From contig NZ_LUKD01000005.1 in NCBI RefSeq assembly GCF_001592745.1, positions 469,360-501,886 on the forward strand: a DNA stretch of 32,527 nucleotides, given 5' to 3'. Both the position numbers and the translations under genes were made by a program. The notes under the pieces were generated by a model. That model made no database searches. It saw only the letters and a list, made by a program, of their open reading frames with translations, and was not told the DNA's origin. This document shows, in pieces, positions 803 through 31,168 of the stretch (its first letter is position 1; the number at the start of each line of letters is the position of its first letter). This DNA comes from Bdellovibrio bacteriovorus. Its GTDB lineage: Bacteria; Bdellovibrionota; Bdellovibrionia; Bdellovibrionales; Bdellovibrionaceae.

Positions 803-3800
803 TTAGAATGTCACCGGAGTCATATGAGGCAATTTAGCCGCATCTGAGTTTCCGATAATCATACCGCGCACTCGTGAGTGACGGGACGCTGGACTGAATG
901 GAAGTCCTTTGTATTTAGGAGAGCTCATAGCTGGAACCCAGCGACCAGAACCATCCACAACCCATTCACGGAAGTACATGTTCGTGTGCGTACCCTCAAC
1001 TAGATAGTCGATTGTCGCGCCAGAGCCAGCAAGTTTCATCGCCGTTCTGAATGTGAACAAGTTTTCCGCCATACCTTCACCGAACTTACCGTAAGCTGCA
1101 GCGAAAGCTTTCGCATCTGAGTTCATGTATTTATACATAGACTTCAAAGCGAAATACATTTTGCTCGCTGCACCTGCCGTGCGCTTGCTTGTGCGAGTCA
1201 CGCAAGTACCAGGACCACTTGCATCGATCATGCAGTAGTCATACGGATCGTTGTTCGTACGGAAGTAGTCATAGATTTGATCTGTCGACAAATCAATGAA
1301 CTGATCTTGAGTCATTCGTTGAGCGGCATTCATCAATCTCATCGTGTTTTCTTCACTGAAGTTCACGTTGAATTCAACACCTGTGTAACCAAGGTCACGG
1401 TCAGGAACGCCCACCATCAAGATATTCAAGCCCGTTTTCTTAACAAGGTCGTAGATACCTTTACGCAATCTTGCACCATTCGATTTCTCGTGGCGGAAGG
1501 CGTATGAGTAAGTACCGAACATGCTTTCCATACGTTCTTTTGTATCCCAGTTTTCAACAGCGTATTTCGCGCCGTAGAACATGAAGTCCGTTTCTTTATG
1601 TTTGAACCAGAAACGAGAATCTTCAGAGTCTGAGTAGATACCGTAGTGAACTTGTGCCGTGTTGCGATCAATGTGCAAGTCAGATGTTGTGAATGAATTC
1701 ACGCGACCTTCACTGTAAGTTTTATTCCAGATAATTGGAATAGACAGTGATTTGCTTGCTACGCGACCTGTAGACACCGTTCTGAAAGTTTCCACTTTAA
1801 GAACTGGAGCACGTTCAACTAAGTTCGCTGGACGATTCGTCGCAAACGTTTCAGACGCCAACACGTTACCGCGGATCACGTCTTCGTAAGCTTTACGTCC
1901 TGTTTCAGTCGTCATATCGAACAAGAATGAGAATCCATCATCCGAGTATTTGAAGTCATTCACACTCAAAGTCAGGATCGAAACATTCGTGAACATAGAG
2001 AAGCTGCTTAGTTTACCGCGAGTGATTTTCACGTAAACTTTTTCAGAATCTACTTTTTCAACATATGTTTCCCAAGAACCGTTAGCCAATTTAGCCACAC
2101 CTACGCCCACAGGACCGAAACCAGCACCTGCAGAGAAGATGATGCCACCATGGCCAAGATAAGTGATGCTATCGCCAGTATCCCAAGCATCCAGATCCGA
2201 GGCCGATTCAGGAACCTGCCAACGGCCACCCATAGAGTGCGCGCGATCTAAAGTGCTGACATAGCGAACAGACTCTGTCTGTTTACCCATGATTGGCAAT
2301 ACGCCGACATAACCCCAGAAGTGCTGACGCAATCCTGTTGCATTGTCGAACCAGAATTGAACCTGAGCACCAATACCTACTTCGATAGAACCGTAGACTG
2401 TTTTTTGGAAACCGTCTCGATAGTCACCGTAGATCAAAGAATCAGAGCTTGGGCGGTAATCGTATTTCACAATTGATTTCGGCTGAACGTCTCTGAAGTG
2501 AGGCGTCAAGTTCACGATGTATGAACCATAGTCGAAGCTCAAGTGGAATAGGGGTTTCAACTTCGCTTTCAACTCGTTTTCTTCTTCTTCCTCAAAACCT
2601 GTTGTACCAGTAGTTGAAGATGTTGAAGTTGTCGAGGTAGTCGATGTTGTGTCATCCCCTGCAGTAGTTGTAACTGTAGTTGACGTATCGTCACCTGCAG
2701 TTGTCGTCACCGTCACAGTGTCATCACCTGCAGTTGTCGTAACTGTCGGTTCCCCTGCTGTTGTAGTCACTGTCGTGTCTGGGCCAGCAGTCGTTGTCAC
2801 AGTCACATCAGGACCGTAAGTCGTTGTAACAGATGTATCCGGACCCGCCGTCGTCGTTACAGTTGGACCGTAAGTCGTCGTTCCGTGGTTCCCTTTATGG
2901 CCGTTATTGCCATTATTTCCATTATTTCCATTATTTCCGTTATTTCCGTTATTTCCGTTATTTCCGTTATTCCCGTTATTTCCGTTATTCCCGTTATTCC
3001 CGTTGTTACCATTGTTGCCGTTGTTGCCATTGTTTCCGTTGTTTCCGTTATTTCCGTTATTTCCGTTATTTCCGTTGTTTCCGTTATTTCCGTTATTTCC
3101 GTTATTTCCGTTGTTTCCGTTGTTCCCGTTATTTCCGTTATTTCCGTTATTACCGTTATTACCGTTATTACCGTTGTTACCGTTGTTACCGTATTGGCCC
3201 CGGCTTCCGTTATTACCGTTGTTGCCGTTGTTTACGTTATTTCCGTTGTTGCCATTATTTCCGTTATTAACGTTATTTCCGTTGTTGCCATTATTTCCGT
3301 TATTAACGTTATTGCCGTTATTGCCGTTATTTACATTATTACCATTGTTACCATTGTTACCATTGTTAACGTTATTCCCGTTATTCCCGTTGTTTCCATT
3401 ATGTCCATTGGAACCAAGAATACCCAACGAACCAAAGGTACCGTTGTTACCGTTGTTGCCGTTATTTACATTATTACCGTTATTACCGTTATTACCGTTA
3501 TTACCGTTGTTCCCATTGTTCCCATTATTTCCGTTGTTTCCGTTGTTGCCATTAGAACCAAGAGAGCCCAGAGAACCTAAAGAACCTAAAGAACCAAGCG
3601 AACCAAAATTTCCAGAGTTTCCGTTATTGCCGTTGTTACCGTTATTACCATTATTACCATTATTACCGTTATTGCCATTATTTCCGTTATTACCGAAAGA
3701 GGCAGAATTACCGTTGTTGCCATTGAAGTTGCCATTATTACCGTTATTGCCGTTATTACCTCTCGTAGAGACCGTCACCGCAATTTTAGCGTCATAACTG

Positions 3801-3958
3801 ACAAATCCACCTTGCCCACCGATATATGCTGAAGCCGATGGCTTCTTAGAATTTGATTCCTTATTCACAGACGCATTCGTCGGCGTGTTCGCAACTGCGA
3901 GATTCGCCACTAACGTAAACCCTGCTAGAAGGAATGTAGTTTTCGAACTATGAATCAT
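803..3958 (-). CDS. Secreted Gly-Asn-Asn repeat protein with Thr-rich linker and large C-terminal domain
   Basis: The protein has 1051 residues and no family I can name. Residues 1-23 are a typical signal peptide ending AVA, so export is expected. Residues 67-358 are almost pure Gly-X-X triplets, overwhelmingly GNN. They are interrupted by five GSL units, a second GSLGIL patch, regularly spaced VNN substitutions and GSRGQY, and they end in 32 unbroken GNN triplets (257-352). Residues 359-453 are Thr-rich repeats of the VTTTAGDDT/TTTYGP type. FEEEEEN then leads into a roughly 590-residue domain (461-1051) rich in aromatics and beta-prone stretches, with two nearby Cys (DYCMI, GTCV) that could form a disulfide. 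The start is firm: AAGGAG lies 6 nt before the ATG. It is monocistronic-looking, with its own terminator. Glycine at every third residue permits a collagen or polyglycine-II helix. A surface stalk or adhesin is inferred, not shown. Confidence 0.9.
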   Translation of the reverse strand: MIHSSKTTFLLAGFTLVANLAVANTPTNASVNKESNSKKPSASAYIGGQGGFVSYDAKIAVTVSTRGNNGNNGNNGNFNGNNGNSASFGNNGNNGNNGNNGNNGNNGNNGNNGNSGNFGSLGSLGSLGSLGSLGSNGNNGNNGNNGNNGNNGNNGNNGNNGNNVNNGNNGNNGTFGSLGILGSNGHNGNNGNNGNNVNNGNNGNNGNNVNNGNNGNNVNNGNNGNNGNNVNNGNNGNNGNNVNNGNNGNNGSRGQYGNNGNNGNNGNNGNNGNNGNNGNNGNNGNNGNNGNNGNNGNNGNNGNNGNNGNNGNNGNNGNNGNNGNNGNNGNNGNNGNNGNNGNNGNNGNNGNNGHKGNHGTTTYGPTVTTTAGPDTSVTTTYGPDVTVTTTAGPDTTVTTTAGEPTVTTTAGDDTVTVTTTAGDDTSTTVTTTAGDDTTSTTSTTSTSSTTGTTGFEEEEENELKAKLKPLFHLSFDYGSYIVNLTPHFRDVQPKSIVKYDYRPSSDSLIYGDYRDGFQKTVYGSIEVGIGAQVQFWFDNATGLRQHFWGYVGVLPIMGKQTESVRYVSTLDRAHSMGGRWQVPESASDLDAWDTGDSITYLGHGGIIFSAGAGFGPVGVGVAKLANGSWETYVEKVDSEKVYVKITRGKLSSFSMFTNVSILTLSVNDFKYSDDGFSFLFDMTTETGRKAYEDVIRGNVLASETFATNRPANLVERAPVLKVETFRTVSTGRVASKSLSIPIIWNKTYSEGRVNSFTTSDLHIDRNTAQVHYGIYSDSEDSRFWFKHKETDFMFYGAKYAVENWDTKERMESMFGTYSYAFRHEKSNGARLRKGIYDLVKKTGLNILMVGVPDRDLGYTGVEFNVNFSEENTMRLMNAAQRMTQDQFIDLSTDQIYDYFRTNNDPYDYCMIDASGPGTCVTRTSKRTAGAASKMYFALKSMYKYMNSDAKAFAAAYGKFGEGMAENLFTFRTAMKLAGSGATIDYLVEGTHTNMYFREWVVDGSGRWVPAMSSPKYKGLPFSPASRHSRVRGMIIGNSDAAKLPHMTPVTF
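2600..2884 (-). repeat. Thr-rich degenerate repeats (VTTTAGDDT type)
   Basis: This stretch encodes residues 359-453 of the repeat protein. The unit is roughly T-T-T-[AY]-G-[PDE]-[DE]-T-[TV], occurring about eight times before dissolving into TSTTSTSSTTGTTG. Acidic residues alternate with Thr runs. It resembles an extended, possibly O-glycosylated spacer between the triplet region and the globular domain. The spacer role is inferred. Confidence 0.8.
2903..3190 (-). repeat. Perfect run of 32 Gly-Asn-Asn codon triplets (9-bp units)
   Basis: The tract is exactly 288 bp and encodes 32 consecutive GNN triplets. The commonest unit on the coding strand is GGAAATAAC. Only wobble positions change (GGA/GGT/GGC/GGG, AAT/AAC), often in blocks of identical neighbours, as expected from recent tandem duplication. 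Because the unit is 9 bp, gain or loss of units keeps the frame. Confidence 0.95.
3191..3760 (-). repeat. Interrupted Gly-X-X triplet region with VNN and GSL blocks
   Basis: This stretch encodes residues 67-256. It is mostly GNN, with Val replacing Gly at regular intervals (GNN-GNN-VNN and GNN-GNN-GNN-VNN supermotifs). It also has five tandem GSL triplets, a GTFGSLGILGSNGH patch and SRGQY. A 36-bp unit is duplicated exactly at 3235-3270 and 3271-3306. These interruptions break the chain into segments while keeping the three-residue register. Confidence 0.9.
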
Positions 3959-4028
3959 ACATTCTCCTTTTTTTTGTTTTTGGTCGTTCCAAAAAAATTT
4001 TCAGGCAATTTCGCGCGCCTTAATATTT

Positions 4029-4058
4029 TTGACACCTTATTGTTTTTCAACCTTTGTA
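4029..4058 (+). promoter_or_regulatory. Candidate promoter for the HTTM module
   Basis: A perfect TTGACA (4029-4034) is followed after 18 nt by TTTGTA (4053-4058), a weak -10 match. It lies about 130 nt upstream of the ATG at 4191, in the 232-nt divergent gap shared with the repeat-protein gene. The assignment is tentative. Confidence 0.3.
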
Positions 4059-4190
4059 AACACTTTGGAGTTGTAGCTAAGTTGGTCAGAAAAAAAGTTT
4101 CCAACTAAACCACATCGTTGCGAACAGGATATTTTCCTCTCACTGTTTGTAACCAGACATTCTGACTTTCGGCATGATACACGGAGGACC

Positions 4191-4811
4191 ATGAAACAAT
4201 TTGAAATCAAAAAAATCAAAATCGTGTGGAATGTTTTTATTAAGGCCGTCGTCCTGACGTTCTTTTTTGTGAATGTCGGAATCATGGTCGCAGATGGTCT
4301 TCCAGATCGAAGCGCTCTAGGAACAAAGTTCATACAGACTGTCGAGAGATATCAAGCCTTTGGAATGCTTTATCAACCATGGAGCATGTTCGCTCCCAAC
4401 CCGATGAACACGAATGCATATGTTGAAGCCGATATCAAATTCACTGATGGTACGACAACTGTTTGGAAGATGCCTCGCCCCTCAATTATAAGTGGTGCCA
4501 GAAAAGTTTTAACCGCTGACCGTTACAGAATCGTAGGCCAGGAAACTTTGCTTCCGAACGAAAACGAACTTGTGTGGTTCGACATTTCAAAATACGTTCT
4601 GCGTGAAATTGCTACAATCGAGTCCAAAGGACAAGGAAGAGTCGTTGCCGAAATCACCTTCAGCCGATTCTCTAACAAAGTACTTCTGCCTGATGAAGCA
4701 CCCTTCATTCCTCACGGACAGATGTCCACAGAATTTTTAAAAGAGTCCGTATTCGTATATAAGCCAACAACTGAGAAGGTTCGTTATGAAGCTAAAAACG
4801 TTGTTCAATAA
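4191..4811 (+). CDS. Membrane-anchored partner of HTTM protein
   Basis: The protein has 206 residues. It has one N-terminal hydrophobic helix (about 14-34) and then a soluble, probably periplasmic domain. A conspicuous motif YQPWSMFAPNP lies near residues 60-70. As I recall, this W-x-M/L-FAPNP signature recurs in small proteins encoded beside HTTM-domain membrane proteins (DUF5819-like). No catalytic residues can be named. The ATG is preceded by a strong GGAGG at about 7 nt. The gene overlaps the following HTTM gene by 26 nt, so the two are almost certainly translationally coupled and function together. Its biochemical role is unknown. Confidence 0.8.
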   Translation: MKQFEIKKIKIVWNVFIKAVVLTFFFVNVGIMVADGLPDRSALGTKFIQTVERYQAFGMLYQPWSMFAPNPMNTNAYVEADIKFTDGTTTVWKMPRPSIISGARKVLTADRYRIVGQETLLPNENELVWFDISKYVLREIATIESKGQGRVVAEITFSRFSNKVLLPDEAPFIPHGQMSTEFLKESVFVYKPTTEKVRYEAKNVVQ

Positions 4812-5736
4812 TATTCATGATTTTATTTTTGCACCTCAACCCGTTTACACTGTGGCCCTGCTACGAATGGGTATGGGTCTGCTACTGCTATTTAACTGGT
4901 TGATGATCATCACAGACATTGACGTCCTTTACGGACCCAACGGAATTATTTCCCTCCAAACGGCGCAACAGTATGGGAATCCGTTTCGTTTTTCTCTTTT
5001 TGACTACATTCCTCACACAGAGAAGAACACTTTCACGCTGGCCATTATCAATCTTATTGCTTCAGTCGCAGTCCTGACCGGAACCTTTACTAGAACCGCG
5101 GTTGCGATAGCCTTTGTGACTTTGGTATCCTTCCATCATCGCAATGGTTTTATTTTAAACAGTGCGGACTCTGTGCTTAGAATTTTTCTTTTCTTTTTAT
5201 TTTTCACTCCATCAGGAGATGTGTGGTCTTTTGATTGGCTTAGAAAAAAATGGAATGGAGAAGCTCCCCCAGTTCCCTTAGAGAAAAGCCCCTGGGCCCT
5301 ACGTCTGATTCAAATCCAATTTTGCACGGTCTATATCGCCACTGTGTTATTTAAAATCAAAGGTGAAAAATGGATTGATGGTTCTGCCATCTACATCGCT
5401 ACACGCATCGATGATTTCGTTCGTTTTCCATTACCCCTTTTGAATGACATGACCACAATCAAGCTTCTTACCTGGTCGACCCTCGTTGTGGAATTTGCTT
5501 TGGGAACTTTAGTTTGGTTCAAAGAGACGCGTTATTGGGTTTTGCTCGCCGGTGTCGGCCTGCACTTAGGCATCGAATACACGATGAGCATTCCCGTCTT
5601 TGAATGGGCTATGATCGTCATCATGGTCGCAATGTTGGATCCACGCGATGTCGCAAATTGGGTCCAGAATATTCGAGAAAGAAACTTTACAGCATTGCGA
5701 CCTAAGTTTATACGATTTCGACAAAAGAGTGTTTAA
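4786..5736 (+). CDS. HTTM domain membrane protein (vitamin K-dependent carboxylase-like)
   Basis: The protein has 316 residues and about seven hydrophobic helices. The segment SFHHRNGFILNSADSVLRI near residues 115-133 is characteristic of the HTTM family ('horizontally transferred transmembrane domain'), related to the membrane part of vitamin K-dependent gamma-glutamyl carboxylase. The animal enzyme's large lumenal domain is absent, so carboxylase activity cannot be assumed. The start codon lies inside the end of the previous gene, with GAGAAGG about 6 nt upstream. The pair is a self-contained two-gene unit. A 94-nt gap follows before the next gene. The family call is confident; the function is unknown. 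Confidence 0.85.
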   Translation: MKLKTLFNNIHDFIFAPQPVYTVALLRMGMGLLLLFNWLMIITDIDVLYGPNGIISLQTAQQYGNPFRFSLFDYIPHTEKNTFTLAIINLIASVAVLTGTFTRTAVAIAFVTLVSFHHRNGFILNSADSVLRIFLFFLFFTPSGDVWSFDWLRKKWNGEAPPVPLEKSPWALRLIQIQFCTVYIATVLFKIKGEKWIDGSAIYIATRIDDFVRFPLPLLNDMTTIKLLTWSTLVVEFALGTLVWFKETRYWVLLAGVGLHLGIEYTMSIPVFEWAMIVIMVAMLDPRDVANWVQNIRERNFTALRPKFIRFRQKSV

Positions 5737-17242: not shown

Positions 17243-17280
17243 ATCCGAGAAACGAAAAACTTCTACTTTGTTTCTCGGAT
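17243..17280 (-). terminator. Hairpin overlapping the end of mlaD
   Basis: A perfect 11-bp inverted repeat (atccgagaaac / gtttctcggat) has a 16-nt loop. The 5' arm, in transcript sense, lies within the last codons of the MlaD-like gene, and its stop codon is in the loop. The downstream tract AATTTATCTTT is only moderately T-rich, so this may be a weak terminator or an mRNA 3' stabilising structure. Confidence 0.55.
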
Positions 17281-18228
17281 ATTGGCTGGCACACGTTCCT
17301 GCGCTTCTTCATCGCGCACTTCACGCACGCTTCCACGCATAAAGAAAGACTTTTGCATGGCTTTAAGCACAACCACTGTCTCATTCAGAGCCTCGACCAA
17401 ACGAACACTGGCTCCAGGAAGCTCAGGCTCCACGGCTTTCACTGCAGGCCCCAAGGCCCGAGTGACCGTGGCTAGATTCTGAGTCATGACGGCCAAGTCT
17501 TTGGCTAGCTGAGGATTTTCTTCATTCAACTCTGGCAAAATGCGATTGATCTCTTTGGTGGTTACCGCAAGATTTCCGACGAGTTTCTGAACACCGTCAT
17601 CATGCGTAGCTTGACGAGAAAGCTTGATCACTTCCGTCGACATCGTATTTAAATTCTTCATTAAAGGATCTAATCTGTCGATCACGCGAACCATGCTTTC
17701 AGCCCGGCTCTTATCTGCAAATGCATCGACGATGACCTGCATGCTTTCAAGAATTCCTCCAAGCTTACTCAAATAGGAATTCATATTCTTACCGCTCATC
17801 AAGGTCATAAGATCCACTGTTTCTAAAGACTTCACCGCACTGTGAGCCGGTAAGACTTGAAACTGATCATGTCCTACAGATAAATCCAGAACGCGTTCAC
17901 CAATGATAAAAGGACGAATCAATTGCACGGTGCTATTTTCGCGGACGCGATCTTGAAACTTACCTAAAATATAAAAGCTCACACGAATGCGATTGTCGCT
18001 TTCAAGTTCAACAGACTCAACTGCGCCTGCACGCAGACCAGACATTTGCACCAATGTTCCTTGGTGCAGGCCATCGGCATTTTCAAAGGTCGTCGTATAA
18101 CGAACCTTCGGTTCGAACCAACCTTGTTTGACCGCAGCACTGATCGCTGTCAGAATAATTCCGAAGATAGCGACTACGATGAAAAGACCTGCTACCCTCT
18201 CAAACTTACTAAACTTGACCTTCATCAT
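17263..18228 (-). CDS. mlaD: MCE-domain protein, MlaD family
   Basis: The protein has 321 residues. One N-terminal membrane helix (about 12-33) anchors it in the inner membrane. A single MCE domain follows (about 38-120, including YTTTFENADGLHQGTLVQMSG, by position 43-63, and IGERVLDLSVG). Then comes a long helical region (about 150-300) that would form a coiled tube or needle, longer than in E. coli MlaD (183 residues) and closer to Mce-type proteins. MCE rings bind and pass lipids between the membranes. Its start overlaps the mlaF stop by 4 nt (ATGA). Substrate and direction of transport are unknown. Confidence 0.88.
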   Translation of the reverse strand: MMKVKFSKFERVAGLFIVVAIFGIILTAISAAVKQGWFEPKVRYTTTFENADGLHQGTLVQMSGLRAGAVESVELESDNRIRVSFYILGKFQDRVRENSTVQLIRPFIIGERVLDLSVGHDQFQVLPAHSAVKSLETVDLMTLMSGKNMNSYLSKLGGILESMQVIVDAFADKSRAESMVRVIDRLDPLMKNLNTMSTEVIKLSRQATHDDGVQKLVGNLAVTTKEINRILPELNEENPQLAKDLAVMTQNLATVTRALGPAVKAVEPELPGASVRLVEALNETVVVLKAMQKSFFMRGSVREVRDEEAQERVPANIRETK

Positions 18229-18935
18229 AGATGAACAACCCTTTTCTCTGGATCGACAGCTTGGAAATACAACTGCCCTTCATCTAAATGAATGATCTGG
18301 TACTCAAATAGATTCATAAACTTTTCGTCATAAGAACTGATAAATACATGTTTGCAATGACCTTCTTTACGAAGTCTGTGCACGTGGTCCACAAAGGCAT
18401 AAATACTGTCTTGGCCCAAACCCACACTTGGATCATCCAAAAGAAGTATCTGCGGGCGCATTACTAAAGCACGTAAAAGACAGGTCAACTTACGAATACG
18501 ACCGGGCACATGCGCTGGACGGTCATGCGCAAATTTTTCTGCACCAAATTCTTTTAAAAGACCTTCGACACGAGCCTTCGCTTCTTCTGGAGAAACCACT
18601 TTATGGTAAAGAAGCGGCAACATCAGATTATCAAATAAAGAACGGTTGTTGATAAGACCGCCATAATCAAAGGAATAACCAATCTGCAAGCGGTACGGTA
18701 AAAATTCTTCAAAAGACATATCACAAACGTTTTCACCGTTGATCAGATATTTTCCCGATTGCGGAATTTGTAAGCCAGCCAGGATTTGCAGTAAGGAACT
18801 TTTGCCAGCACCCTCTTCCGCCTTCACCCAAAGAATTTCATTCATGGGGAAGTCGAACTCGACATTTTGAACAATCGGATCTTGTCCTTCATGTGTGAAT
18901 GTCACGCCTTCAAATTTAAGACTCTCGATTTTCAT
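18225..18935 (-). CDS. MlaF-like ABC ATPase with degenerate catalytic motifs
   Basis: The protein has 236 residues. By position between the MlaE permease and the MCE protein it is the ATPase subunit. Sequence shows an ABC fold, but nearly every functional motif is altered. Walker A reads AEEGAGKSS (39-47; first Gly changed, Lys45 kept). The Q-loop Gln is Asp90 (YSFDYGGL). The LSGGQ signature is VPGRI (143-147). The catalytic Glu after Walker B is Asp168 (LLLDDPSVGL). The switch His is Tyr202 (ISSYDEKF). The frame is intact and conserved around these sites, so it is not a decayed pseudogene. It may bind but hydrolyse ATP slowly or not at all. It shares 1 nt with the mlaE stop (TAATG), and GGGGTGG precedes the ATG. 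Confidence 0.85.
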   Translation of the reverse strand: MKIESLKFEGVTFTHEGQDPIVQNVEFDFPMNEILWVKAEEGAGKSSLLQILAGLQIPQSGKYLINGENVCDMSFEEFLPYRLQIGYSFDYGGLINNRSLFDNLMLPLLYHKVVSPEEAKARVEGLLKEFGAEKFAHDRPAHVPGRIRKLTCLLRALVMRPQILLLDDPSVGLGQDSIYAFVDHVHRLRKEGHCKHVFISSYDEKFMNLFEYQIIHLDEGQLYFQAVDPEKRVVHL

Positions 18936-19759
18936 TAGACCACCCCTAGACTACGAAGTTGATTTAAATAAAACAAAGCTGAAACCATTAAGTTAAAAAT
19001 CACGACGAAAATAATACTGTTCACCACGGCCTGAGTTGTGACTTGGGGAACTTCATGCGGAGACCGTTTCACCGACAATCCCTGATAGCAAGAAACAACA
19101 AAGATGATCATGCCGCTAAAGCCGTTTTTCAGAAAAAAAATCAGAACGTCTTCTTTAGCAAAAGCTTTCATCAAAGAATCTGTATAAAACGTCAATGACA
19201 TGTCTTGAAAGAAGCGCGTAACCAGAAAACCGCCAATCAAGGCAATGGCATTAAAATAAAATGCTAATCCCAAGACACTCAGAACTCCGCCCACAACACG
19301 CGGAAACACAATAAAGCTTAAAGGGTTAATCCCCATGCTCTCTAACGCTTCGATCTCACGATTGGCGCGCATATTTCCGATTTCTGAAGCCACGGCGGTT
19401 CCAGAACGTGCAATCACGACAAGCGCCACGAGTAACGGCCCCGCTTCTCGCAGAATCATCACAATCAAAAAGCTTCCGATCATCTGCGTTCCGCCTAACA
19501 AGGTCAGATTAGAGAGCGATTGCAAAATCATCACCGAGCCCACACCCAACGCGAGAACAGAAATCAAAGGCAGAGCCTGCCATCCCGTGAAATAAATTTG
19601 TGAGGAAAGAACACCGACGATTTGTCTGAAGCCTTGCGCTTTATCCAGAATGGCAGCGCGAAGAGAAAGATAGACCATGAGGAACACACGCACTGTGTAT
19701 TCCACGTTTTTAGTAACAAATCTTCCTAGCGAATCTATCTGCGCCAGTAAAGAAGTCAT
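18935..19759 (-). CDS. mlaE: MlaE-family lipid ABC permease
   Basis: The protein has 274 residues with about five or six membrane helices. Family marks include an amphipathic N-terminal helix and the ALGVGSVMILQS region. The diagnostic stretch is AGPLLVALVVIARSGTAVASEIGNM (by position 105-130), followed by REIEALESMGINPLSFIVFPRV, which contacts the ATPase. MlaE dimers form the membrane core of MCE lipid transporters. It is the first gene of mlaE-mlaF-mlaD, with AAGGGG about 7 nt before the ATG. The MlaB (STAS) and MlaC (periplasmic carrier) genes of the E. coli system are not in this window. Confidence 0.92.
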   Translation of the reverse strand: MTSLLAQIDSLGRFVTKNVEYTVRVFLMVYLSLRAAILDKAQGFRQIVGVLSSQIYFTGWQALPLISVLALGVGSVMILQSLSNLTLLGGTQMIGSFLIVMILREAGPLLVALVVIARSGTAVASEIGNMRANREIEALESMGINPLSFIVFPRVVGGVLSVLGLAFYFNAIALIGGFLVTRFFQDMSLTFYTDSLMKAFAKEDVLIFFLKNGFSGMIIFVVSCYQGLSVKRSPHEVPQVTTQAVVNSIIFVVIFNLMVSALFYLNQLRSLGVV

Positions 19760-23491: not shown

Positions 23492-24184
23492 TTAGATATC
23501 TAAAAGCCGATATCCAACGCCAGCTTCAGTAACAATGACGTCTGGCGTGTCTTCTGAGATCTTTAATTTCTTGCGTAAAGCTCCGACGTACACCCGCAAA
23601 TAATGAGTGTGCTCGACGGAGTTGGGGCCCCAAACCTCATTTAGTAACATCCGGTGAGTCACCACTTTTCCCTTATAGCGCATCAAAACTTTTAAAATGT
23701 TGAACTCGGTGCTCGTAAGTTTTACATGTTCGCCGTACACAGTGACCACGTGTCCTGGCAAATCCATTTTTAATGGACCACTGGCGAACTCGGACTTCTC
23801 TAGTGCACTTGTGGAAGAGTGACGAAGAGCCACGCGCATGCGCACCAAAAGCTCGGGCAAACTAAAGGGCTTCGTAATATAATCGTCCGCGCCCCCATCC
23901 AAAGCGGCGACCTTATCGTTATCAGAATCCTGAACCGTTAAAACTATTACTGGCAACCGGGTCCAGCCACGAATCTCTTTTAAAACTTCAAGACCGGTAA
24001 CATCAGGAAGGCCCAAATCCAAAAGTACAATATCAGGACGCAAGGAGGCGACTAAAGAAACACCTTCACGACCTAAAGAAGCTTCGTCGACATGATAACC
24101 ATTTCCTTCCAAACTCACTCGCAGGAGCTTTCGGATCGAGGCCTCATCATCAATCACTAATACTTTTTTCATGCCTTCTTTCAT
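23492..24184 (-). CDS. kdpE: KdpE response regulator
   Basis: The protein has 230 residues of the OmpR/PhoB class. The receiver domain has acidic D12-D13, phospho-acceptor Asp56 in VLLDLGLPD, and a conserved Lys in DYITKPF. The C-terminal winged-helix DNA-binding domain includes LTSTEFNILKVLMRYKGKVV (by position 150-169) and VYVGALRKKL. It is phosphorylated by KdpD and activates the kdp genes under low potassium or osmotic stress. Its start overlaps the kdpD stop by 4 nt (ATGA). Another ATG 12 nt downstream begins MKKVLVIDDE but is crowded by its purine tract. Confidence 0.95.
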   Translation of the reverse strand: MKEGMKKVLVIDDEASIRKLLRVSLEGNGYHVDEASLGREGVSLVASLRPDIVLLDLGLPDVTGLEVLKEIRGWTRLPVIVLTVQDSDNDKVAALDGGADDYITKPFSLPELLVRMRVALRHSSTSALEKSEFASGPLKMDLPGHVVTVYGEHVKLTSTEFNILKVLMRYKGKVVTHRMLLNEVWGPNSVEHTHYLRVYVGALRKKLKISEDTPDVIVTEAGVGYRLLDI

Positions 24185-26859
24185 GATTCACCCGTGAGAT
24201 CTTGCGGCGGCTTTTCGTAAGGAAGTTTAATAAAGAACTCGGCTCCCAACGAGGCTTGTCTGTTCTGAGCATAAACCTCACCGCCATGAGCTTCAACTAA
24301 TGCTTTAACAATAGCCAAACCTAAACCCACTCCCCCGGTCTTGCTGCCGGGAACGCGATAGAAAGCTTCAAATATTTTTTTTAAATGGGACTCTGGTATT
24401 CCAGGGCCTTCATCTTTCACCGAAATCAACGGCCCGCCATTTCGTTCAAGACTTAAAGTGATCGTTGAACCCGAGGGCGCGTAGCGAACTGCATTCGACA
24501 AAAGATTCAATAACACATGCTCAATCAATCTTTCATCCACTCGCGCATAGACGGTCTCGACAGAGTTCACGATAGAAATTTTATGTTGCGCTGCCAAGCG
24601 CCCCATCTTAGAAGGTATACCCGAAATCAGATCGTTTAAATCAATCCATTCCTTCTTTAACTGCAAGGCACCGGAATTAAGTCGCGACATATCCAGCAGA
24701 TTTTCAACCACCTGATTCAACCTTAAAGAAGAGTCCATGATATCTTCGACCAACTGATCGCGTACAAGTTCTTGTGAAGAAAGATTTTTATCCGCCATTG
24801 CCGAAGCCGACCCTATGATCGCCGTTAGCGGAGTGCGCAACTCATGAGAGACCGTGTTTAAAAGAGCTTGATGCAGATTTTCGGAAGCTTCCAGAACCTT
24901 GGTTTTTTCTGCACTCTTTTGTAAACGCAGACGATCCAAAGCCATGGCCGTCTGGGCTGATACATTTTCAAGAATATGCTGTTGATCCAAGGTGAGGCTA
25001 TCTTTTTCACGTGGGTAAAAGAGCAACACGCCCACCGAACGTTCTTTTGCCTTTAAAGGAACTGCCAGACAGCGTGACTCAGATAAAGTCTCCGTCTTCC
25101 AACCCGCATGACGGTTATTTTCAAAAGCCCACAGAGCCAAAGCAAAATCTTTATCATCAACCTTGATGTCGTTCACAGACTTTCTTAAAAGATCCCCGTC
25201 TTCATCTGTCAGTAAGATTTTGACCTTGCCATTTACGATGCGCTCTAAACTTTGCGACGCCGCCAGACTCACATCTAAAACCGACATTGCCGAAGCAAAT
25301 TCTCGAACGAGCTCGTACAGAACACGCGTGCGCTTTTCACGACTCTCTAAATCTCTGTCGCGAGTTCGGATTCGGTCCGCAAGAACACCACTTAGTAACG
25401 CCACCAGAAAATAAGATAAACACATCATCACATCTTCGGGTTGCGAGATGGCAAACGTCATTGCGGGCGGAATAAAAAAGAAATTCCAAATCAAAGCACT
25501 CAAAGTCGCCGCAAAAAGAACGGGTCCCAAAGTGGTAACGAGCCCGATCAGGATCATGCTTAACAAAAAGACAAATCCGACAGATCGGTAGCCTATAACC
25601 GGAACAGCCAAGCCATTGACAAAACTCACTCCTAAAAGTGCACAGAAAGAATACCAGTATGAAGTTAACGGAGAATCAAAAACCAGCGCTTTCCACTTTG
25701 CTTTACGAACTTTTGAATCCTCTTGTTGACGAATAATATGGACGTCAACATCACTGCTCTTACTGACGAGTTGATCTAAAAGGGACCCTTGTCCTTTTAA
25801 GCGATCCCACCAGCCTTGTTGAGGTCTTCCCATAATAATTTGCGTGACATTGCGCTCATGAGAAATCTCGCGAATGCTTTCAGCAATATTATGATTTTTT
25901 ACGGAAACAACTTCCGCACCTAACTCACGGGCCAAGTTCAAATTCTTTAACAGCCTAGACTGATCTTCGGCGCTTAAACGCACCTCGGTTTCGATGTGTA
26001 AAGCAATCCACGGTGCTTCTAAACTAAAAGCCATGCGGCGGGTGGCGCGAATCAGGCGAGCCGCGAAAGGACTGTGACTGACGGCTACCAACAGACGCTC
26101 TTGCGTATTCCAAGGACCTTGAATCTGCTGCACGATCATTTGATTCTGCAGATCTTGATCCACTTGCTCCGCAGTATAGCGCAATGCCAATTCACGAAGC
26201 GCCGTTAAATGTGTTTCTTTAAAAAAGTTTTCTTCAGCACGAACCGCACGGTCCCCCTGATAAACTTTTCCTTCTTTCATGCGCTTAAGAAGACCTTGCG
26301 CCGAGATATCGATAAGCTCAATCTGGTTTGCCAGATCTAATACCGAATCAGGAATTCGCTCTTGGATTTTAACACCCGTGATTTGTTGAACTAAATCAGC
26401 GCGACTTTCTAAATGCTGCACATTTACTGTGGAATAAACGTCAATGCCCGCCTCTAAAAGCTCAATCACATCCTGATATCTTTTGGGATGGCGAGATCCT
26501 GGTGCATTTGTATGTGCGAGTTCGTCAACGAGGACCAGACGTGGTTTGCGTGCAAGAATCGCATCCAGATCCATTTCTTTTAAAACTGTGTCTTTATAAA
26601 CAATATCTTTTCGAGGAAGAAGCTCAAGCCCCGCAAGAAGTTCTTCCGTTTCTTTACGCCCATGTGTTTCAACGACGCCAACCACAAGATCCGTGCCCTG
26701 TTGAACTTGCTCCAGGGCCGCTTTCAGCATCGCATAAGTTTTTCCAACTCCGGGACACATCCCAAAAAAGACACGAAAGTGCCCACGCACTCTTTCGCTT
26801 TCTTCCTTTTTTATCCCGGCCAACAAACGGTCGGGATTGGGACGATATGCTTCACTCAT
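24181..26859 (-). CDS. kdpD: KdpD sensor histidine kinase
   Basis: The protein has 892 residues, matching full-length KdpD. The N-terminal KdpD domain has P-loop GMCPGVGKT (33-41) and DELAHTNAPGSRHPKRYQDV (about 111-130). A universal-stress-protein domain (about 250-365) precedes four membrane helices (about 395-500, DUF4118). A GAF-like domain follows (about 520-640). The kinase core has His672 in VSHELRTPLTAI, LLDMSRLNSGAL, N-box LLNLLSNAVRYAP, and DEGPGIP/GVGLGLAIVK. It senses potassium and phosphorylates KdpE. It is the fourth gene of the operon, overlapping kdpC and kdpE by 4 nt each. Confidence 0.97.
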   Translation of the reverse strand: MSEAYRPNPDRLLAGIKKEESERVRGHFRVFFGMCPGVGKTYAMLKAALEQVQQGTDLVVGVVETHGRKETEELLAGLELLPRKDIVYKDTVLKEMDLDAILARKPRLVLVDELAHTNAPGSRHPKRYQDVIELLEAGIDVYSTVNVQHLESRADLVQQITGVKIQERIPDSVLDLANQIELIDISAQGLLKRMKEGKVYQGDRAVRAEENFFKETHLTALRELALRYTAEQVDQDLQNQMIVQQIQGPWNTQERLLVAVSHSPFAARLIRATRRMAFSLEAPWIALHIETEVRLSAEDQSRLLKNLNLARELGAEVVSVKNHNIAESIREISHERNVTQIIMGRPQQGWWDRLKGQGSLLDQLVSKSSDVDVHIIRQQEDSKVRKAKWKALVFDSPLTSYWYSFCALLGVSFVNGLAVPVIGYRSVGFVFLLSMILIGLVTTLGPVLFAATLSALIWNFFFIPPAMTFAISQPEDVMMCLSYFLVALLSGVLADRIRTRDRDLESREKRTRVLYELVREFASAMSVLDVSLAASQSLERIVNGKVKILLTDEDGDLLRKSVNDIKVDDKDFALALWAFENNRHAGWKTETLSESRCLAVPLKAKERSVGVLLFYPREKDSLTLDQQHILENVSAQTAMALDRLRLQKSAEKTKVLEASENLHQALLNTVSHELRTPLTAIIGSASAMADKNLSSQELVRDQLVEDIMDSSLRLNQVVENLLDMSRLNSGALQLKKEWIDLNDLISGIPSKMGRLAAQHKISIVNSVETVYARVDERLIEHVLLNLLSNAVRYAPSGSTITLSLERNGGPLISVKDEGPGIPESHLKKIFEAFYRVPGSKTGGVGLGLAIVKALVEAHGGEVYAQNRQASLGAEFFIKLPYEKPPQDLTGES

Positions 26860-27395
26860 AATGTTTCATCCAATGCCAGATTGAGCTTGAGAACATTCAC
26901 TCGGACTTCTCCCAAAATTCCTCCCTGGCGCCCCTCAGTGTATTCCTGGATCAGCTTTTCAACCAGCACTGTTTGCTCTTGCGACAACTTGCGTTCAACA
27001 GCAATGCGTTGAACCTGCGAGCGTGCTGCCAAAACAGAAATATGGGGATCTAATCCACTTCCCGAGGTGTAGAGCATGTCACCCACGTTCCCTTGTGCTT
27101 TTCTTTCAGCAAGGGCCTTCTTAAGACTCTCGCTAGTTGGCCCCGCATTCGAGGCCCCTGATGCCACGGTGGCATAATCGCCTGCGGAAGGACGCGCCCA
27201 AAAGTATTTTGGATTCACAAACTTTTGCGCTATCAACTCAGATCCGATCACTTGCCCGTTTCTTTCAATCAACGAGCCTGCCGCCTTCCTAGTAAACAGC
27301 GTTTTCCCTGCGAAAGTCACCGCCAGAGGATACAGAACGCCTAAAAGAAAAGTCATGACGACAAACACCTTTATAGAAATCAAAAACTGTTTCAT
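26856..27395 (-). CDS. kdpC: KdpC subunit of potassium-transporting ATPase
   Basis: The protein has 179 residues with one N-terminal membrane helix (about 7-27) and a periplasmic domain. Typical marks are [42 protein letters not shown] and [10 protein letters not shown]. KdpC stabilises the KdpFABC complex and promotes ATP-dependent potassium pumping. I place the start at 27395 because it forms an ATGA overlap with the kdpB stop and follows GGGTGGG. The longer frame opening at 27422 would add nine residues (MHCRNGVGV) that do not resemble KdpC. Confidence 0.95.
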
Positions 27396-29470
27396 AACAC
27401 CCACCCCATTCCGACAATGCAAACATCAATGATTTTAATTCCAACAAAAGGGACCACCACGCCGCCAAATCCATAAATAAAAAGATTTCTTTTTAGGATG
27501 ATATTCGCGCCCTGAGGGCGATACTTCACACCTCGCAACGCCAAAGGAATCAGGGCAATAATAATCAAAGCGTTAAAAATCACAGCACTCAGAACGGCAC
27601 TTTGCGCGGAATGAAGTCGCATAATATTTAAAGCAGCTAAGGGTCCTTCTCCGTTCACCATGTAAAGTCCCGCGAACATCGCCGGAATGATCGCAAAATA
27701 TTTTGCGATGTCGTTTGCAATACTGAAGGTGGTCAGCGCCCCTCGAGTCATTAAAAGCTGTTTTCCAGTTTCGACAATCTCTATAAGCTTTGTTGGATTT
27801 GAATCAAGATCGACCATGTTACCAGCCTCTCTCGCCGCTTGAGTTCCCGTATTCATTGCAACACCAACATCTGCCTGCGCCAACGCCGGCGCATCATTCG
27901 TTCCATCTCCTGTCATCGCGACTAAGTGCCCACGGTTTTGTTCATCACGAATTCGTTGCAACTTCATTTCAGGAGTTGCTTGCGCAATATAGTCGTCAAC
28001 ACCTGCCTCTGCCGCGATGGCCGCAGCAGTTAGCGGATTGTCACCGGTCACCATGACGGTGCGAATTCCCATGCGACGAAGTTCAGAAAATCTTTCGCGA
28101 ATGCCGCCTTTCACAATGTCTTTAAGGTGAATCACGCCTAGCACTTTCGCATTTTCAGCAACGACTAACGGAGTTCCTCCTTGGCGTGCAATCGCGTCAG
28201 CAGCGTTTTTTACTTCCAAAGGAAAGACCCCACCTAAAGACTCCACATACTTCTGAATGGAGTCACCCGCCCCTTTGCGGAGCACTCGAAGACCTTCGCT
28301 TGTTTTAATATCTACTCCGCTCATGCGAGTCTGCGCGGTGAAAGGAACAAACTGAGCCTGATGAGGGTCTAGATTCTGTGCGCGCAACGAGAATCTTTGC
28401 TTGGCTAAAACCACAATCGAGCGCCCTTCGGGTGTTTCGTCACTTAAAGATGCCAACTGTGCGGCCTCTGCTAAAGTTTCTAGTTCGACACCAGAGGCCG
28501 CCTTGAAGTCAAAAGCCATACGATTTCCAAGAGTGATAGTGCCGGTTTTATCTAACATCAACACGTCGATATCGCCGGCGGCTTCGACGGCACGACCACT
28601 TTTAGCTATCACATTTTTACGAATCAATCGATCCATGCCACTAATGCCGATAGCACTCAAAAGTCCGCCGATCGTAGTCGGAATTAAACACACCAAGAGC
28701 GCAATTAACACTGGCACATTCACGATACCGGACAGATCCTGCCCCGCACTTTTTGCTGAATAGTCTGCAAAAAATTTGAGCGTGATAATCGCCAAGACAA
28801 ACACCAGTGTCAGCGATACCAATAGAATGCTTAAAGCAATCTCATTCGGCGTTTTCTGTCTTTTAGCTCCCTCGACAAGATTGATCATTCGATCTAAGAA
28901 ACTATTTCCAGGGTCTGCGGTGATACGAATGATAATACGATCACTGATGACACGCGTTCCTCCCGTAACAGCACTGCGATCCCCGCCGGCTTCACGAACC
29001 ACCGGAGCTGACTCTCCGGTAATAGCGGATTCATCGACCGTTGCAATCCCCTCGATTATTTCACCGTCTCCAGGAATCACATCATTCGCCTCACAGACCA
29101 CAGTGTCTCCTTTGCGCAATGATAAAGAAGCCACGCTTTCTTCTCGACCTTGGAAAACTTTACGAGCCAGGGTGTGCGAACGAGTTTTCTTCATCGACTC
29201 GGCCTGCGCCTTTCCACGCCCTTCAGCTAAGGCCTCAGAAAAATTAGCAAACAAAACCGTGAACCATAGCCACATCGCTAGTTGCACCTCAAAGCCAAAG
29301 CTTTCGCCGGCCTTCATTCTATAAACGGCGATAAAACTGACCACCAAGGCGCCGATCCACGTAATAAACATAACGGGATTCTTCCATTGCACTTCGGGAT
29401 TGAGTTTTTTGAAACTATCGAAAAAAGCTTGAGTCAGAATTTTTTTATCAGAAAAAGTGGAAGCACTCAT
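27392..29470 (-). CDS. kdpB: KdpB, P-type ATPase subunit
   Basis: The protein has 692 residues. It is the catalytic subunit that hydrolyses ATP for potassium uptake. The phosphorylated Asp307 is in DKTGT, the same number as in E. coli. TGESAPV (actuator loop, with the regulatory Ser), KGAGD in the nucleotide domain, and [11 protein letters not shown] are all present, along with seven or so membrane helices. The ATG at 29470 is preferred over a GTG at 29476 because TTAAGGAG sits 5 nt before the ATG. It lies 9 nt after kdpA. Confidence 0.97.
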
Positions 29471-29479
29471 AATCACTCC

Positions 29480-31168
29480 TTAACCTCTCATCATCAGCAA
29501 ATGCTCAAGAATCGGTCCTAACGACAAAGCCGGAAAGAACGTCAATGCTCCAACAATCACGATGACGGCACACAAAAGAACCACAAATAACAACGAATCT
29601 GTCTTGAATGTTCCCACCGATGCCGGTGCTATCTTCTTACCCGCAAGACTTCCTGCAATGGCTAGCACAGGCAAAATAATCGCGAAGCGACCGACCAGCA
29701 TTGCGAGCGCAAGAGTGACATTGTAAAACGTCGTGTTCACCGACAGACTACCGAAAGCACTCCCATTGTTTGCCGCTCCCGAAGTATAGGCATATAAAAT
29801 TTCACTCAAACCATGAGGACCTTGGTGTCCCAATCCCGCAAGCCCCGCCGGAGTTGCAATTGCTAAAGCACTGAAGATCAATATCACCACACAAGGCGCA
29901 AGCACTCCGACCACCACCCAGATGATTTCTTTAGCTTCAATTTTTTTTCCTAAGTATTCAGGCGTGCGTCCGACCATCAATCCCGAAATAAAAACGGTCA
30001 GAATCACAAAAAGCAGCATCCCGTACATTCCCGCCCCGACACCGCCGAAGATCACTTCACCTAACATCATGTTAACCAGGGCTATTCCACCACTGAGGGG
30101 AGACAATGAACTATGCATGGCGTTCACCGAGCCATTCGAAGCCGATGTCGTTAAGACCGACCACAACACACTATTCGTCACACCAAAGCGAGTTTCTTTC
30201 CCCTCCATGGAGGCCGCCTGAGCGATGAAAGGATTTGCACTGTACTCACTCCAAAGCGACAGTGAAAGCATCACAACAAACATCGCCATCATTGCTGAAA
30301 ACAACATCCAACCTTGCTTTCTTGATCCCACCATCACACCGAAGGTGTAAGTACTCGCCGCCGCGATCAGCACTAGCGAAATCATCTGCAAGAAATTGCT
30401 TAAAGGAGTGGGGTTTTCATAAGGATGTGCGCTATTAACGCCAAAGAATCCTCCACCATTGGAACCCAGTTGTTTAATCGCAATCTGAGAAGCCGCCGGC
30501 CCTTGGGGTAAAACCTGCTCAGCACCTTCAAGGGTTTTTGCTGGCACATAAGAGTTGAAGTTTTGGACAACACCTTCTCCGACAAGAACGACAGCCAGAA
30601 AAAATGAAAGCGGCAAAAGCACATTCACTGTTGCCCGCGTTAAATCCACCCAGAAGTTCCCGATTCCTGTCACCTGCTTGCGCGCAATTCCTCGAGTGAA
30701 AGCCAAAAACACGGCAAAGCCTGTTGCCGCACTGACAAAGTTCTGCACTCCCAGTCCCAGCATCTGAGTTAGATAACTCAAAGTACTTTCACCCGAATAG
30801 GCCTGCCAGTTGGTGTTCGTCATAAAACTCACGGCCGTATTAAATGCCAAGTGCCAAGACGTATTTGTAAAACCCTGTGGATTCAAAGGCAGAATCTGCT
30901 GCACCATCATCAAGACCATCACAAATATCAAGCCTAGAAAGTTGAAACATAGAAGAGATATAGAGTACTGCTTCCAGTTCATCTCACCGAACTCATCTAT
31001 TCCACATATTTTATAAATGATCTTTTCCAAAGGCCGCAGAACCGGCGACAGCCAGGTGCGCTCTCCTTGAAACACTTTCGCCATATAACCACCCAAGAGC
31101 GGCGTCGCCACTACGATCACCGCTAGGGTCAAAAACACTTGAATGAAGTCTGAAATAGTAAAACCCAT
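29480..31168 (-). CDS. kdpA: KdpA, potassium channel-like subunit
   Basis: The protein has 562 residues with about ten membrane helices. It selects and conducts potassium in the Kdp pump. The four pore-loop regions are visible: SFMTNTNWQAYSGE (about 113-126), GSNGGGFFGVNSAHPYENPTP (by position 233-253), TTSASNGSVNAMH (about 344-356) and SGAANNGSAFGSL (about 468-480). AAAGGA precedes the ATG by about 7 nt. It is the first gene of kdpABCDE. I find no kdpF-like short membrane peptide in the leader. Confidence 0.97.
   Translation of the reverse strand: MGFTISDFIQVFLTLAVIVVATPLLGGYMAKVFQGERTWLSPVLRPLEKIIYKICGIDEFGEMNWKQYSISLLCFNFLGLIFVMVLMMVQQILPLNPQGFTNTSWHLAFNTAVSFMTNTNWQAYSGESTLSYLTQMLGLGVQNFVSAATGFAVFLAFTRGIARKQVTGIGNFWVDLTRATVNVLLPLSFFLAVVLVGEGVVQNFNSYVPAKTLEGAEQVLPQGPAASQIAIKQLGSNGGGFFGVNSAHPYENPTPLSNFLQMISLVLIAAASTYTFGVMVGSRKQGWMLFSAMMAMFVVMLSLSLWSEYSANPFIAQAASMEGKETRFGVTNSVLWSVLTTSASNGSVNAMHSSLSPLSGGIALVNMMLGEVIFGGVGAGMYGMLLFVILTVFISGLMVGRTPEYLGKKIEAKEIIWVVVGVLAPCVVILIFSALAIATPAGLAGLGHQGPHGLSEILYAYTSGAANNGSAFGSLSVNTTFYNVTLALAMLVGRFAIILPVLAIAGSLAGKKIAPASVGTFKTDSLLFVVLLCAVIVIVGALTFFPALSLGPILEHLLMMRG

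Follow-up and report, generated by a model that had tools for sequence, protein, structure and literature searches.

Stalks built of Gly-Xaa-Yaa triplets are usually regarded as simple spacers. Gly at every third residue is also found in the polyglycine-II proteins, such as the snow-flea antifreeze protein and the tips of phage adhesins. Genes for HTTM and DUF5819 proteins are, to our knowledge, widespread in bacteria and mostly without a known substrate. In Bacillus, SdpA and SdpB act together with a secreted partner (PMC6818787), and in the vitamin K-dependent gamma-carboxylase (GGCX), K218 serves as the active-site base (PMC12589487; PMC9146348). Here we describe a Bdellovibrio bacteriovorus gene for an exported protein with a Gly-Asn-Asn (GNN) stalk and a large C-terminal domain (CTD), together with its HTTM and DUF5819-like neighbours. 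The window, i. e. the whole stretch of DNA that was analysed, comprises 32,527 nucleotides (contig part C5:469360-501886 of a 3.76-Mb Bdellovibrio genome). The parts are known but the combination is new, and the new part is the link of the CTD stalk protein to HTTM and DUF5819. In the open-access literature we found no account of the CTD family and none that describes GNN stalks in Bdellovibrio or links HTTM with GNN.

As far as can be judged from sequence, the gene encodes an exported stalk-and-head protein of a family specific to Bdellovibrionota, which would be matured by the neighbouring membrane pair of HTTM and DUF5819-like proteins. We assign this reading a probability of roughly 0.55. 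The open reading frame (ORF) is real; it runs on the minus strand from 3958 to 803 and encodes 1,051 residues. By reading, a GGAG motif lies upstream of its ATG, and the plus-strand ORFs across 2833-3797 are mirror frames of the GNN repeat. The h-region of residues 1-23 ranks with the most hydrophobic stretches of the protein. The initial annotation had described a gene with a signal peptide, Gly-X-X triplets, a Thr-rich linker, an acidic boundary and a large C-terminal domain, and all of these parts were recovered. The gene and its neighbours are arranged as follows:

806-2596, minus strand: conserved CTD (head), residues 455-1051 (597 residues), opening with an acidic FEEEEEN boundary; from CTD alignments
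2597-2884, minus strand: Thr-rich repeat linker, residues 359-454; from sequence
2885-3760, minus strand: Gly-X-X triplet stalk, residues 67-358 (292 residues), with 71 GNN and six VNN units; from Tandem Repeats Finder (TRF, period 9) and Pfam Collagen
3761-3889, minus strand: mature N-terminal segment, residues 24-66, ending GGQGGF... and kept in near relatives
3890-3958, minus strand: signal peptide, residues 1-23 (MIHSSKTTFLLAGFTLVANLAVA), with a hydrophobic h-region and a similar N-terminus in the orthologues read; from sequence
3959-4190, no strand: intergenic region common to two divergent transcription units; by reading
4191-4811, plus strand: DUF5819-like partner, divergently transcribed, with a WSMFAPNPM motif; Pfam PF19136, E=7e-5, below cut-off
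4786-5736, plus strand: HTTM-domain membrane protein with an invariant Lys190; PF05090, E=3e-16

A promoter scan of the intergenic region 3959-4190 gave nothing better than shuffles.

In 15 Bdellovibrio loci that were read whole, the HTTM and DUF5819-like pair adjoins the CTD gene. In five further ones, where contigs or places are broken in the repeat (G009 with two genes, G017, G007 and G016), HTTM lies beside the 5' half. In the HD100-like genome G006 the gene is found at about 2843301-2846489, likewise with HTTM/DUF5819 next to it. The remaining neighbours differ between the two locations of the CTD gene in Bdellovibrio whereas the pair is constant, indicating a cassette which stayed together as its surroundings changed. 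In other genera and families, a single ORF of 490-600 residues encodes a fusion of HTTM with the DUF5819-like domain. It directly follows the CTD gene, in most cases at a distance of 8-75 bp and in the same orientation (L096, L102, L104, L107, L111, L116). When CTD genes with readable flanks were split by the presence of a triplet stalk, HTTM was adjacent to 22 of the 23 genes with such a stalk, compared with 7/51 of the others (Fisher 9e-12).

The coupling was also found independently of the CTD. DNA encoding (GNN)4 was sought in 359 genomes and was present in 30. In 21 of these the tract was read directly beside HTTM/DUF5819, and in one more (G149) the adjacency was inferred from split contigs; if genomes were independent, about 0.3 adjacent genomes would be expected. 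Ten of the 21 belong to the genus g105, where GNN forms the C-terminal tail of an unrelated membrane-anchored coil protein and no CTD is present. Here DUF5819 and HTTM directly follow the GNN-tail gene in most cases (L197, L199-L202); in L166, L167 and L172 an intervening gene follows, and HTTM/DUF5819 genes lie on both sides. Thus the pair accompanies the GNN stalks of two scaffolds that are unrelated to each other, and the head alone cannot explain the coupling. In some g105 clusters the GNN-tail protein is accompanied by HTTM/DUF5819 genes or pairs, three at most (L202 5711-10277, L200 4370-8370, L166 4845-13278). GNN motifs can also emerge in proteins of other kinds, one case being an FtsX-like permease into which a short NGN/GNN stretch is inserted (L189 3981-5336).

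The initial annotation had missed the HTTM/DUF5819 genes next to the stalk gene of the window (4191-5736), which are the best functional clue at this locus. The HTTM protein matches PF05090 with 60 bits (cut-off 27.7) and the SdpB family TIGR04033 with 35.3 bits (E=9e-9), far below the cut-off of 178.4. Its profile matches GGCX chains in the PDB at 2e-8. Lys190, invariant in the HTTM alignment, aligns with the second Lys of VKKLDADW, i. e. K218 of GGCX. The DUF5819-like protein remains under the cut-off of PF19136 (23.9 bits, cut-off 27.1) but its motif region does match. The alignment of DUF5819-like proteins has invariant Q-W-MF-P-P columns, and the gene order of the pair is as in Streptomyces, where it is annotated DUF5819/HTTM. 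One Streptomyces plasmid encodes a small exported protein ahead of DUF5819-HTTM and has a DUF393/DCC1 gene nearby.

That the C-terminal domain belongs to no known family, as was proposed, held in all searches: against Pfam, NCBIfam and PHROGs nothing credible was found, and CTD profiles of 7 and 55 sequences gave no match to PDB sequences up to E=10. Its wide spread in Bdellovibrionota had been overlooked. A single-sequence search found the CTD in 25 of 60 close relatives. With profiles it was recovered from 33 of 144 genomes at class level and, in the whole phylum Bdellovibrionota, from 107 of 369. These searches place the so far unnamed protein in a family that spans the phylum. The CTD is absent from the phages and plasmids searched, and none was on viral contigs. 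Over 55 sequences, seven columns are invariant, mostly Gly and Pro plus one Cys. This is Cys465 in CTD numbering; Cys455 is almost invariant (protein residues 919 and 909), and a disulfide probably stabilises the domain. Several of the fused HTTM-DUF5819 partners also contain a DCC1-like domain (best E 2e-5), and a thiol-disulfide oxidoreductase of this kind fits the Cys pair. No catalytic-looking polar residue is invariant, and hence a structural or binding role of the CTD appears likelier than an enzymatic one. An internal duplication of the CTD was not supported (hhalign, E 0.34). The same genome has a CTD paralogue (L043 8902-11817; G000:C5 ~40902-43817) whose N-terminal region is a different one, about 400 residues long and free of repeats, and which HTTM does not adjoin; this type is also present in the HD100-like G006. 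Tandem duplicate CTD genes occur in two other genera (L071 8041-12559; L075 4088-9755).

The stalk is strongly periodic. In the best 150-residue segment one phase consists of Gly to 92%, compared with at most 54% in 1,000 shuffles. Pfam Collagen (PF01391) matches with 126.5 bits (cut-off 27.2, E=3e-37); this match is driven by composition and is thus evidence of periodicity, not of a triple helix. Residues that stabilise the helix in the X and Y positions are largely missing, with no Pro and two charged residues (one Lys, one Arg) among the 292 of the tract; they are present in the triplets of some orthologues (L065, L067-L069). The tract is imperfect: besides the six VNN units there are two register slips (GNFNG, NSASFG) and GSL, GTF and GIL units. 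On the DNA level TRF detects a nine-base tandem array. The 71 GNN units are encoded by 14 different 9-mers using all four Gly codons, and thus the tract is not one recently amplified DNA unit.

In contrast to the CTD, which is 80-99% identical between strains, the linker varies in length and type, and even among strains with 98-99% identical CTDs it diverges strongly in both. In HD100-like genomes it consists of GNN, of mixed GNN/GIV/GSS or of GNYGNNGDHGDKG; other family members have collagen-like GSKGDRGERG, NGNSNG, HDTGRDDTG, SSSSG or PTPTP linkers, and pentapeptide-repeat linkers also occur (PF01469, 22 stretches). The simplest reading of these sequences is that the stretch joining the signal peptide to the CTD is a spacer under weak sequence constraint, flanked by two conserved ends. 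Since this stretch is interchangeable it would act as a stalk, and length and spacing look weightier than one particular rigid fold. Hence the earlier proposal of a rigid surface stalk with a globular head is retained for predicted export and for the division into stalk and head, but not for rigidity: Gly-to-Val units recur, and close relatives swap triplets for Pro-, Ser- or pentapeptide-rich linkers. Distant CTD proteins (L122, L123, L125, L126, L134) have very long pentapeptide repeats of the form NxGxx, which occupy as many as about 1,190 residues ahead of the CTD and resemble mycobacterial PPE-MPTR repeats. A candidate strain-level contraction of the repeat in G001 was dropped, the stretch being masked there (runs of X).

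In several genomes the gene is interrupted at the repeat. The contigs of both G009 genes and of G017 end in the repeat beside HTTM. In G007 and G016 the gene is split inside the repeat, and the 5' half (HTTM, signal peptide and GNN) and the repeat with the CTD lie at separate places of the chromosome (G007/G016 loci: L181 9448-10542 with L059 7877-9937; L182 9497-10168 with L055 7573-10272). This is either a rearrangement through the repeat or a misassembly. Many draft contigs end inside such repeats, as in L033, L034, L038, L053, L096, L097, L102, L107, L111, L116, L178-L180, L186 and L187. Thus assemblies systematically fragment the CTD family, whose annotation is probably incomplete.

Put together, the signal peptide would send the stalk protein across the inner membrane, and the HTTM (vitamin-K-carboxylase/SdpB superfamily) and DUF5819-like pair, on which maturation would depend, would act at the outer face of this membrane on the protein once exported, presumably by quinol-driven chemistry. 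Its target would most likely be the Gly-triplet stalk, or the start of the chain that bears the stalk. The fast-evolving Gly-Xaa-Yaa segment (here GNN) and the Thr-rich segment would serve as a spacer of variable length, and the conserved CTD of about 590 residues, with its probable disulfide, as the functional head, presumably at the cell surface. The recurrent adjacency of HTTM and stalk suggests a dedicated bacterial way of maturing collagen-like stalks. A more far-reaching version, which we regard as tentative, is that a dedicated bacterial system, composed of a quinol-driven vitamin-K-carboxylase-like HTTM, DUF5819 and often a DCC1-like thiol oxidoreductase, chemically modifies exported GNN collagen-like stalks and that in predatory bacteria its substrate is a surface stalk bearing a head domain of a new kind. 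The hydroxylation of collagen and the carboxylation of Gla proteins in animals would be parallels to such a modification.

Several observations weigh against maturation of the stalk by the HTTM pair. On the CTD tree only 3-4 independent triplet-HTTM contrasts agree and none disagree (p ~0.25), so that the Fisher value could in large part reflect common descent. Seven HTTM-linked CTD loci have no strict triplets, and therefore a stalk-specific action is not proven. Most CTD genes lack an HTTM neighbour, and so do the (GNN)4 tracts of eight genomes (L188-L195). Furthermore, the window HTTM lacks His160, a Glu-pocket residue of GGCX, and has L-N-S-A-D where GGCX has W-N-N-H-S; ordinary Glu carboxylation is thus not to be assumed. 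Possibly, then, the repeat does no more than hold a surface-binding domain at a distance, as a plain spacer of low complexity, and HTTM/DUF5819 genes are frequent neighbours for reasons of shared regulation or of an action on the CTD disulfide rather than of stalk modification. The interchangeability of the linkers (GNN, GSKGDRGER, NGNSNG, PTPTP, SSSSG, pentapeptide), the many CTD genes without HTTM, the seven loci just mentioned and the DCC1-like domain, which could serve the CTD cysteines, would all fit. However, in ten genomes HTTM/DUF5819 genes also lie beside the GNN tails of an unrelated protein devoid of the CTD, which means that the CTD is not the sole shared target, and we consider this explanation clearly less probable than maturation by the pair. 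It is very improbable that the GNN tract is a functionless product of DNA slippage. The nine-base array, the different tract lengths in close strains and the GNN insertion in the FtsX-like permease of another genome (L189) are in line with an expanded junk repeat, but the variety of 9-mers and Gly codons is not, and neither are the retention of the tract throughout the genus and its coupling to HTTM on two scaffolds.

Two other explanations concern the exported protein itself. HTTM/DUF5819 could process it and free a fragment with antibacterial action, in the way that SdpAB act on SdpC. This would agree with the similarity of HTTM to the SdpB family, with the logic of the sdpABC/yitPOM genes (PMC6818787), with the Streptomyces plasmid, where a small exported protein lies by DUF5819-HTTM, and with a hydrophobic Gly-rich stretch within the CTD. 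Yet the TIGR04033 score is far under its cut-off, the CTD has no SdpC-like match in Pfam or NCBIfam, it is the entire domain of 590 residues that is conserved and not a short peptide, and no immunity gene is recognised next door, all of which makes a toxin system of this kind distinctly improbable. Somewhat less so, but still unlikely, is a TULIP-like head, in which the first half of the CTD would fold as in BPI, LBP or JHBP and bind lipid or lipopolysaccharide of the prey. Two separate AlphaFold2 predictions of the CTD, built on seven homologues, gave Foldseek lists rich in TULIP proteins (LBP, BPI, CETP, Der f 7, JHBP, SPLUNC1, SMP domains), and by VIA-align LBP came first with a Z of 5.5-5.8. 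However, both models are poor (predicted local distance difference test scores, pLDDT, of 46 and 50), the best Foldseek E was 0.04, all Z remained under 6, and outer-membrane barrels scored alike.

Maturation by the HTTM/DUF5819 pair thus remains the reading we favour. The repeated pairing with stalks on two unrelated scaffolds yields a concrete, testable enzyme-substrate hypothesis. If it is true, bacterial collagen-like proteins would gain a post-translational modification, and a family of surface proteins, left unnamed by automatic annotation, would be identified in predatory bacteria. By eye, the window also contains a probable kdpABCDE potassium-transport operon (23492-31168, minus strand; response regulator, sensor kinase, KdpC-, KdpB- and KdpA-like) and probable genes of an Mce/MlaEFD-type lipid transporter (17263-19759, minus strand; substrate-binding protein, ATPase, permease).

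Compared with SdpABC/YitPOM of Bacillus subtilis, the locus likewise has a small partner and an SdpB/HTTM-type membrane protein by an exported protein (PMC6818787); here, however, the exported partner is a stalk-head protein of 1,051 residues unrelated to SdpC, the small partner is DUF5819-like and an immunity gene is not recognised. With GGCX the window HTTM shares profile similarity and the Lys equivalent to K218, whereas the domain outside HTTM is DUF5819-like or DCC1-like and His160 is not kept. The likeness to polyglycine-II proteins lies in the Gly at every third residue; the interruptions and the unconserved length of the Bdellovibrio tract speak against one fixed bundle. From the bacterial collagen-like surface proteins (PF01391; Scl1/Scl2, Lcl) the tract differs in its nearly all-Asn X and Y positions, the complete lack of Pro and the Gly-to-Val interruptions, and the protein scores under the cut-offs of the Scl and Lcl models, has an unrelated head and is without a Gram-positive anchor. 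What they have in common is export, Gly at each third residue and a stalk joined to a non-collagenous domain, and some orthologues of the stalk protein likewise have charged GDKGDRGER triplets.

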